Source: Plumapathes pennacea
Lineage: Eukaryota > Cnidaria > Anthozoa > Antipatharia > Myriopathidae
Reading direction: 5' to 3'
DNA: 64,000 nt
NCBI GenBank assembly: GCA_964036295.1
Contig: OZ038468.1
Span: 13,960,183-14,024,182, forward strand
A model generated the notes under the pieces. That model was not told the origin of the DNA and ran no database searches. It saw only the letters and a program-made list of their open reading frames with translations. Both the position numbers and the translations under genes were made by a program. This document shows, one piece after another, positions 34,901-41,040 of this stretch; the stretch's first letter is position 1; every line of letters starts with the position of its first letter.

Positions 34901-37900
34901 ATGTATTCATATGAACCGTTACCTTTCTATAAGAGACCATGCAGTTAATTAGTAAATTTGTAATATATTAAGGACACAAGTTATAGTTAGCGATTTGAAA
35001 ACGATTGTAGGGATATGGAAGCAATGACAAAGCAAGTACGTTGTTTGCATTGTATTTTCTGCTGATAAAACTGATAAATAATCTAAAGTGAACCACATTC
35101 TTAAAAGAAGGGAAAGATCCATACAGTCAGTTGCAAGTGCTAAGATAATCGTGGAATCTTTTTAAAGATTTAAAAATCCCTCTTTACGTGGCGCATCTAC
35201 ACTACTTACTAAATAAATTCTAATTCTACTAATTCTAGGTTTCTAGATTATAACAAGATTGTGGATGTATCACGAAACTTATGTGAAAACGTACTGTATG
35301 ATATATCACTGGTGAGAAACGGAAGGAGAAAACTGAAGTTGAACACTCTGTTGGGAGTGAAAGGGTTACACCGGATTTTATCTTTAATTTGCGCAATGCG
35401 GACAGACAGACAGATAGACAGATAAAATTAATTAAATTTATGTATTCATTTATATATTTTATTATAATTTCATTTAAAATTTAATTTAGATTAAATTAAA
35501 TTTCTGTATTGCTATATTAAATAGCACTATTAAATTAAATAGCAATCCACCATTACAGAAGCTTACGGTAAGGTAAACTCGCGCTCTGTATAAACTCTGT
35601 ATAGTTATATTAAACGGTTAAATGCTAGCAAATGCGCTCCTTAAACAAACCGCAAACTGATTTGAAATCTAACCTGTGAGCACTTAGTTTATCTTATAAT
35701 GTTTATAGGCACATTCGACTCTTATTGAAACAACTTCTGTTTACGTCAATATTGAACTAAACTGGACTAAAAATAGAACCAAAATTGAACACTTTTTTAC
35801 ACCCATGTCATATACTGTTGAACATTTACGCCAAATGTGTGAAACAAAGTTTAACCAGGATTAGGTTTATCGCACTTTGAAAAATATCTGAAAACTATGG
35901 ATAAGCCGGGTTGTTAAGGTACTTACGTAAGCAGTTGCAATTTGATTGTTAGCAAACCATGATTGCTGAAGTTGTGTTTTAGAGAGCATTTTGAGAAAAC
36001 ATGATCAATATCACCGTTTTTCTGCAAGCAAGCGTTCAATAGTACTTGTGAAAATTTCGATTTTCTGAGAATTTAATCTTGTTTAAAAAAACCCACAATA
36101 GAATCAATTTGATCACATCAATTTGAGCTCTTAACTCTAATGAATTTAGTTGTCTAAAAACTTGGTATCCAATTTTTAGTAAATCACCACAATGAGTATG
36201 CTGCTCGTTTTCTAGGATAACTGCTCACTTGTAATAATTTTCCAATAGTTGGAGGTAGGTTGTAATTGTTAATTCTCTCTCCTGCTGAACAGAAAGCTGG
36301 ACCACTTCACGCTGTGTTGTTACGCTGCAAAGTCCCTCCCTCGTGTAAAATGTGAGTCTCCGGCAGATGAGTTCTCTAGCTGCGATGACCTCATGAAGTA
36401 CGGGACACTGCAAGCGTTCATTTGGATTCTAGGAATTCTGGCATTTCTAGGAAATCTATTCGTGATTGTTTGGAGACTCGTCGTAAGTGAAGACAACCGA
36501 GTGAACTCCCTTCTGCTATCAAACCTGGCTGTTTCCGATTTCCTTATGGGAGTGTACTTATTGATCGTAGCCATAAAGGATGCAGAATGGCGTGGAGAAT
36601 ACTTCTTGCACGACTTAAAATGGAGGAATGGAGCATTATGCAAGTGCGCTGGCATTTTATCGATGGTCTCCAGCGAAGTGTCTGTGATCATGCTAACGGC
36701 GATGACAGCGGACCGACTTATTTCCATCGTCTTCCATTTTACGTTCAAGTCTCTGTCGTTAAAGAAAGCGCGGTTGGTGTGTGTGCTCGCCTGGACAGTT
36801 GGATCCGTGTTTGCCGTCTTACCTGTCTTAGGAATTTCGTATTTCCGCGATGAAAGCAATGACGTGGAATTTTATGGGCGGTCGGCCGTCTGCCTTCCTC
36901 TTCAGTTATCTCCTGACAAGCTTGCAGGCTGGGAGTATTCAGTGGCGATATTTATTGGATTTAACGCCGCGTCTTTTTTGTTCATAATGGGTGCCTACGT
37001 CGCCATGTTTGGAACTGTTTATCGTAGTTCTAAGAATGTGGGGTCAGTACACGCCAAACGGGACGCGAGCGTTGCGAAGCGTATGGTGTTCATTGTGCTG
37101 ACCGACTTTTTTTGTTGGATGCCTGTTATCATCATCAGTAGTTTGTCTTTAACGGGGAACTTCCACGATCCCACCAATCAAATCTACGTGTGGATAGCCG
37201 TGTTTGTTCTCCCTGTCAACTCTTCTTTGAACCCTATCCTTTATACTTTTTCCACGAGATCTGCCCTAAAGAAGATCAGGTTTTATCGGAAAACTGTTGT
37301 GTCTTTTATCTCCAAGGGTCGTCAGATTGCGAACAATGGTAAGACGAACTTTAGTTTATAGTGCCAACGCACCCTCTTTTAGACAAAAGTTGTCCTGGCA
37401 CCACCAGGCCTCGTTCCCAGGGCCCGACGAAAACAGCATTATATCCGAGTTTATATCCGTCTTTGTGCAAATTAAGCAGCCAACGACACACAATAAGCAA
37501 CGTGGCACGTTGTCTGACCACTAAAATGCAATCAAAGTAGTACAGAGACGACACAAGAGCTATCTCCCTCTCAGAAACACTGGTAGTCAGTCTCTAAACT
37601 CCAGGGCGAAGTGGGACATATCATAATTTTAGTATTTATAGGCGTCTCTGACTTTACGAATAATTCTGTTATAGATATAGGTAAATTGATGGTCAACGCA
37701 GAGGCTCAAGACGTTTCACTAAACTCACCAAACAGAACTCACAGGTCAGTCCTGCTTCCCGGGACAAAGACCAAGGTAAAGCTGATCAAAAGCTTTGGCA
37801 AGTTCCGTGACAGCGATTCCACATTAGTGGTATGTATAAAGAATCTTCACCTAGATTTATGGACGTTTTTGTAGTTGTATACAGTCAACTCTATCGAATC

Positions 37901-41040: not shown

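Follow-up and report, generated by a model that had tools for sequence, protein, structure and literature searches.

In a 64,000-nucleotide stretch of the genome of the antipatharian Plumapathes pennacea (GenBank assembly GCA_964036295.1, contig OZ038468.1, positions 13,960,183 to 14,024,182 of the forward strand; hereafter, the window), we describe a gene that probably encodes, in one protein, a rhodopsin-class leucine-rich repeat (LRR) receptor, a cytoplasmic degenerate kinase domain, and a class I PDZ-type C-terminal end, with the tail likely being a non-catalytic docking or allosteric module. The fusion of a seven-transmembrane (7TM) receptor with an intracellular pseudokinase, proposed in a preliminary description of this locus, is supported at the DNA level, and the same arrangement is seen in three paralogues. 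Its retention in four related genes suggests that the dead kinase has a job inside the receptor.

Gene structure in the window and in the paralogous loci

All exons of the gene lie on the forward strand. Exon A (36293–37338) encodes the C-terminal hinge of the LRR region and a complete rhodopsin-class 7TM domain, which matches Pfam 7tm_1 along the whole profile (positions 1–260 of 260; E-value 7.8e-31, 107.9 bits compared with the cut-off of 30.5) and retains the DRL, CWMP, and NPILY motifs. Upstream of it, on the same strand, there are at least five LRR exons, each of 72 bp and in phase 2, joined to the receptor by genomic position: 31846–31917 (bounded by AG/GT and carrying an LRR motif), 32714–32785, 33772–33843, 33936–34007, and 34343–34414. 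Three hand-joined LRR pieces, with the piece 33936–34007 excluded, match Pfam LRR_8 at 3.5e-17. With both the 7tm_1 domain and the LRR exons present, the predicted receptor is a rhodopsin-class LRR G protein-coupled receptor (GPCR) of the LGR type.

The boundary of exon A and the following intron reads ATG|GTAAGA and is in phase 1; the strong donor described here earlier is thus confirmed, and a phase-1 donor ends the 7TM exon at all four loci. Six further exons follow: exon B (37642–37829; phase 1 to 0) with a linker and the stretch expected to hold the glycine loop; exon C (38336–38507; phase 0 to 1) with the beta-3 Lys (LLKYF), the alpha-C Glu (EWAREV), and HPN; the short exon D (39114–39177; phase 1 to 2), an insert before the hinge; exon E (40011–40203; phase 2 to 0) with the hinge, alpha-D, alpha-E, and HNW as the remnant of the catalytic loop; exon F (40405–40563; phase 0 to 0) with GFG replacing DFG, a shortened activation segment, and alpha-F (DIQQYG); and exon G (40918–41040) with an alpha-H/alpha-I-like end, the C-terminal PDZ-type end -DTRL, and the stop codon at 41040. 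Donor phases from exon A on are 1, 0, 1, 2, 0, 0, the introns are of the GT..AG type, and exons B–G yield a tail of 299 residues.

The six phase-matched exons of the preliminary description also hold at the level of coding properties. The spliced tail is open over 299 codons and has a codon score of 0.147, compared with 0.139 for the 7TM exon, the score having been trained on 1091 codons from the TRIM, 7TM, CUB, and LDLa stretches of the window, that is, with the 7TM exon included and the tail excluded. The tail value exceeds those of all 4000 equal-length windows of presumed non-coding DNA (maximum 0.059), none of which is free of stops. The first AATAAA past the tail stop is at 41472–41477 (forward strand), preceded by an ATTAAA at 41390; neither hexamer occurs in the exon A–B intron of the window gene.

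At three further loci of the genome, L039, L040, and L043, a 7TM exon likewise precedes counterparts of the tail exons, and their order is unchanged. L039 is a recent copy, its 7TM domain being 97% identical to that of the window gene; L040 and L043 are old paralogues, whose tails are 36% and 28% identical to the window tail, respectively. Initial profile matches on the four tailed loci were circular, as the profile had been built from them, and the search was repeated in the leave-one-out mode. It recovers exons C, E, F, and G in L040 and L043; by exon, the leave-one-out E-values are 1.8e-9 (C), 3.7e-16 (E), 1.3e-4 (F), and 1.1e-5 (G). Exon B has a clear counterpart in L039; its leave-one-out E-value is 1.3 in L040, no match is obtained in L043, and the window exon B compared with the profile of L040 and L043 yields 0.034. 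Its placement in the old paralogues is based on position, phase, and weak similarity. At oriented positions 3029–3127 of L043, within the B–C intron, there is a second exon D-like piece (HVHIDRTDQACLRK), possibly a relic of exon duplication.

On the phylogenetic tree, eight 7TM domains group against three more distant LGR-like receptors, and four of the eight belong to tailed genes. The branching within this group is not resolved by the tree, and so both a late gain and loss of the tail are compatible with it.

Several other elements lie upstream of the receptor exons. Two LDLa repeats are found in an open reading frame at 3727–4128 (forward strand), with some 28 kb and a TRIM-type gene between it and the first LRR exon downstream, and a CUB domain is located at 23583–23999 (forward strand); both are possible parts of the receptor ectodomain. 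A retroelement with a pol-type open frame of 1181 amino acids, which we take to be BEL/Pao-like, occupies 26409–31557 on the reverse strand and closely precedes the first LRR exon, apparently within an intron of the receptor gene.

Kinase relationship of the tail and loss of catalytic features

Judging by profile comparisons, the tail is related to kinases from alpha-C to alpha-I. In a profile–profile comparison with five kinases, residues 92–290 are aligned with a probability of 98.8 and an E-value of 4.9e-17, the raw score being 118.6 compared with the maximum of 22.9 over 60 column shuffles. Similarly, a five-sequence kinase profile (KSR1, KSR2, IRAK4, SRC, and a consensus) gives 26.0 bits on the window tail, compared with 5.8 for the best of 2000 shuffles; the suggestion that the tail exons spell a kinase fold is borne out, as far as kinase relationship is concerned, by these two results. 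Exon E alone reaches a profile probability of 97.9% and beats all 60 shuffles.

Pfam matches are of differing strength. The window tail matches Pkinase at residues 91–226 (E-value 9.7e-5; 22.3 bits, below the curated cut-off of 31.7) and PK_Tyr_Ser-Thr with an E-value of 0.0035, also below the curated cut-off. With the latter family, the L040 tail scores above the cut-off of 23.1 (32.1 bits, E-value 9.2e-8), and the L043 tail below it (15.2 bits, E-value 0.013).

A PDB sequence search with the window tail alone retrieves KSR1 at 0.02. With a profile of the three distinct tails (window, L040, and L043), the top matches are TYK2 (1.4e-6) and KSR1 (2.1e-6), followed by IRE1, ITK, JAK3, CSK, and others, and the best 60 of 793 matches are all kinases. 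The TYK2 alignment extends to alpha-F, and the better of its stretches is the second, active-kinase one.

Pairwise comparisons were evaluated by the number of shuffles, out of 200, that reach the observed score. For residues 142–205, these are zero for the consensus, KSR2, and KSR1, 32 for IRAK4, and 60 for SRC; for residues 206–299, one for KSR2, 21 for KSR1, 42 for IRAK4, 56 for the consensus, and 196 for SRC; and for residues 1–141, seven for the consensus and 112–196 for the other four. Since these segment tests split, one sequence does not decide between tyrosine kinases (TK) and tyrosine kinase-like (TKL) proteins, and the tail is best described as TK-group or TKL-like, with no closer placement.

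The residues of the catalytic machinery show a selective pattern of loss. The beta-3 Lys, the alpha-C Glu, and the alpha-F Asp are kept at each of the four loci; the Lys–Glu pair and the alpha-F Asp are the residues that hold the kinase fold together. The HRD motif is replaced by HNW in the window gene and L039 and by HNN in L040 and L043, so that its Asp has become Trp or Asn everywhere. The DFG motif reads GFG in the window gene and L039, GFT in L040, and NFS in L043, its Asp being replaced by Gly or Asn. The catalytic-loop Asn is substituted by Ser at three loci and kept in L043. The substitutions listed for the window in the preliminary description (HNW for HRD, Ser for the loop Asn, GFG for DFG) and the presence of the beta-3 Lys are all correct. 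With two of the three key residues (VAIK Lys, HRD Asp, DFG Asp) lost, the tail is a predicted pseudokinase at all four loci.

Two segments are also shorter than in other kinases. Measured from DFG Phe to alpha-F Asp, the distance is 19, 27, and 18 residues in the window, L040, and L043 tails, respectively, compared with 39 in SRC and 52 in KSR2, and that from the alpha-F Asp to the alpha-H Cys is 31 residues in all three distinct tails, compared with 54 in both SRC and KSR2. With the activation segment and the alpha-G region shortened, the substrate platform, like the catalytic residues, should be gone. No glycine loop is recognizable in the tail; nucleotide binding may be possible.

C-terminal end, proposed mechanism, and alternative explanations

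The tails end with -DTRL in the window gene, L039, and L043, and with -DTWL in L040, that is, with D-T-[R/W]-L at all four loci. The last seven residues are identical to those of the window tail at six positions in L040 and at five in L043, well above the tail average. This end fits the class I PDZ ligand pattern, X-S/T-X-hydrophobic, and is a putative PDZ ligand. The PDZ domains of NHERF1 have been reported to bind -DTRL of CFTR, -LTWL of TAZ/YAP65, and -PTRL of GRK6A (PMC7866199); the last four letters of CFTR are identical to those of the window gene, L039, and L043, and L040 has -DTWL. The conserved PDZ-type end, not named in the preliminary description, speaks for a scaffold role of the tail.

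Similar ends occur elsewhere in the family. In the neighbouring paralogue L041 (C7:18693500–18703400, gene on the reverse strand), where no tail was detected, the reading of the 7TM exon ends with ...GAVDTRL, and there is a phase-1 donor there too. Among the LGR-like receptors that are more distant, L047 (C2:35242469) has a 7TM exon reading that ends with ETSL, which has the PDZ class I shape.

Taking all this into account, the tail most likely serves for docking rather than catalysis and is held by a PDZ scaffold, and the previously suggested built-in scaffold or allosteric domain appears a reasonable interpretation. We propose that the LRR ectodomain would bind a ligand, and that the 7TM domain, with its DRL, CWMP, and NPILY motifs kept, would couple to a G protein as usual. 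The pseudokinase would phosphorylate nothing; as a built-in part of the receptor, it would dock a partner or control it allosterically. The -D-T-x-L end would anchor the pseudokinase at the membrane by way of a PDZ scaffold, and receptor activation would move or free the bound partner. More broadly, we see an even chance that these genes represent a class of eumetazoan receptors, namely LRR GPCRs of the hormone type with their own pseudokinase module and PDZ anchor. This layout would predate the split of the old paralogues and have been lost in some members, and the receptors would signal via the pseudokinase in parallel to, or instead of, G proteins.

Among other explanations, it is conceivable, if rather unlikely, that both forms are made, with intron retention producing a short-tailed receptor, splicing producing the pseudokinase form, and the tail thus being a regulated isoform. 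All four loci have an in-frame stop past the donor, and the ending of L041 indicates that members of the family can have a short tail with an end of the PDZ type; however, the peptides read through the donor are not conserved among the four tailed genes, and none of them has an [S/T]-x-hydrophobic end.

We consider it improbable that the locus consists of two adjacent genes, a GPCR ending at its own stop and a separate small pseudokinase gene starting in exon B. Indeed, the unspliced 7TM frame reaches a stop at 37361 (...NGKTNFSL), eight codons past the donor, the exon A–B intron is just 303 bp long, and an in-frame Met occurs in exon B, at residue 17 of the tail in the window gene and at residue 7 in L040. 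However, the donor is conserved at all four loci, and the read-through peptides all differ (GKTNFSL, GKTNFNQY, GELYN, GKSLVSSLFIK), even between the recent copies (GKTNFSL in the window gene and GKTNFNQY in L039). Further, the modelled exon B of L043 contains no Met, the first one in this tail being at residue 70, and a 7TM exon precedes the tail at every clear tail match, a count that leaves aside weak matches (seven in C3 with E-values of at least 0.11, and one in C5 with 0.004). These four observations make a separate downstream gene unlikely, and the absence of AATAAA and ATTAAA from the exon A–B intron of all four loci also stands against it.

Still less probable, in our view, is that the tail is a functionless, decaying relic of a once-active GPCR-kinase. 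Four of the eight clade members show no tail, and the overall divergence is high. On the other hand, the frame, the Lys, Glu, and alpha-F Asp residues, and the C-terminus have been kept between the paralogues despite saturated synonymous change, and the ratio of nonsynonymous to synonymous substitution rates (dN/dS) between the window gene and L039 is 0.24, an estimate based on just 11 differences. CASK, which has GFG for DFG, works without Mg, and the tail might be, by analogy, an unusual but active kinase, with the beta-3 Lys and alpha-C Glu kept at all four loci and GFG present in the window gene and L039; this seems the least plausible explanation, given the Trp or Asn in place of the HRD Asp at all four loci, the Gly or Asn in place of the DFG Asp, the lack of a recognizable glycine loop, and the shortened activation segment and alpha-G region.

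Returning to the single gene with a non-catalytic, kinase-derived tail, several observations, along with the small number of differences behind the dN/dS estimate, weigh against it. Only one of the three distinct tails, that of L040, clears the Pfam cut-off, and Pfam searches with exons B–D alone or F–G alone yield no match. The profile probabilities of exons C and D alone (22.7%) and of F and G alone (50.5%) are modest, each beating all 60 shuffles. Exon B alone has no kinase similarity (0.1%, with only 44 of 60 shuffles scoring lower); as this is where the glycine loop, beta-1, and beta-2 are expected, the N-lobe is possibly incomplete or has been rebuilt. With a profile built from a consensus and ten kinases of prokaryotes, the tail ranked third of 2001 and did not stand out from the shuffles; this profile was too narrow and was replaced by the one with four eukaryotic kinases and a consensus. 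In L040 and L043, sequence alone does not recover exons B and D, which have been placed by position, splice sites, and phase; as exon D was sought there under a phase restriction, its phase is not independent evidence. In the clade members L041, L042, L044, and L045, no tail exon was found in the 27.7–28.7 kb downstream, a span that a longer intron could exceed. Finally, the genome gave no match to EBP50_C (PF09007), sought as a sign of a NHERF-type scaffold, but the controls were equally silent. A search for GFP (PF01353), used as a hint to the lineage, had the same outcome, silent controls included.

Beyond the receptor gene, the window contains a TRIM-type gene at 17567–19768 (forward strand), a single open stretch with RING, B-box, filamin, and, in its first piece, a weak NHL match; it is interrupted by a single in-frame stop at 19247–19249, after which the same frame continues. 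An F5/8 type C (discoidin) domain is encoded at 9342–9851 (forward strand; Pfam 2.4e-10), and the stretch 10566–11201 on the same strand looks similar by eye. Two repeat-type open frames, 42204–42605 on the forward strand (YSTRRTTDR...) and 59551–59943 on the reverse strand (YSTPRTTDR...), are very similar and represent a dispersed repeat.

Comparison with known systems

Fusions of GPCRs with tyrosine kinases (GPCR-TK) have been reported in choanoflagellates and sponges, and their kinase domains have strong BLAST matches to curated metazoan tyrosine kinases (PMC12716839). In the parts of that paper covered, the GPCR-TKs resemble the window gene in having a 7TM domain and a C-terminal kinase-group domain in one protein, animals included, with TK versus TKL unsettled for the window gene. 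The latter differs in that the receptor is a rhodopsin-class LRR one and its kinase domain is a pseudokinase, the C-lobe of which is shortened, whereas the GPCR-TKs, judging by their BLAST matches, are probably catalytically intact. A domain as degenerate as this one may well escape a BLAST search with intact TK domains, the approach taken for the GPCR-TKs.

GPCR-TKL/K fusions are also described for acanthoecids (PMC12716839), and GPCR-TKL bigrams for oomycetes and amoebozoans, with about half of those in P. infestans having a DEP domain; in metazoans, according to the same source, GPCR-bigrams are rare or may even be lacking (PMC5784254). As far as these accounts extend, such proteins share the C-terminal kinase with the window gene, but combine other 7TM families with TKL-type and other kinases.

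Receptors of the LGR family, GRL101 included, have been described with no mention of a kinase tail in the sections covered (PMC4079206, PMC8286064). An LRR ectodomain and a rhodopsin-class 7TM domain are thus common to the window gene and to LGR types C1 and GRL101, the kinase tail being absent from those descriptions of the latter. GRL101, a type C2 LGR, has multiple LDLa repeats in its ectodomain; here, the two LDLa repeats that may belong to the receptor lie about 28 kb upstream, beyond the TRIM-type gene. No LRR-GPCR with a kinase-like tail was recognized in the portions covered of the open-licence PMC literature, including PMC9897584, PMC7654579, and PMC4302439, database gene models being outside this search. 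The earlier statement that no animal LRR-GPCR with such a tail has been described agrees with this literature, but the GPCR-kinase fusion itself is known in sponges (PMC12716839). Hence, a fusion of this general kind is not new to animals, and for a rhodopsin-class LRR receptor as its carrier we found no published case.

In KSR, the JAK/TYK2 pseudokinases, and the kinase-homology domains of receptor guanylyl cyclases, a non-catalytic kinase fold regulates a partner or a linked domain; to our knowledge, none of them is attached to a 7TM receptor. KSR1 and TYK2 are the best PDB sequence matches of the tail, the C-lobe of which is shorter than in SRC and KSR2. Unlike in receptor guanylyl cyclases, there is no cyclase or second kinase after the tail, the frame stopping at 41040.

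As a rule, the kinases and arrestins that act with GPCRs are recruited as separate proteins; in this gene product, the kinase fold would be built into the receptor and the catalytic machinery discarded. If true, this layout would be one that the literature covered describes only outside eumetazoans. Compared with the known GPCR-kinase fusions, a pseudokinase kept in four loci would separate their docking role from the catalytic one, and would provide a tractable animal case.
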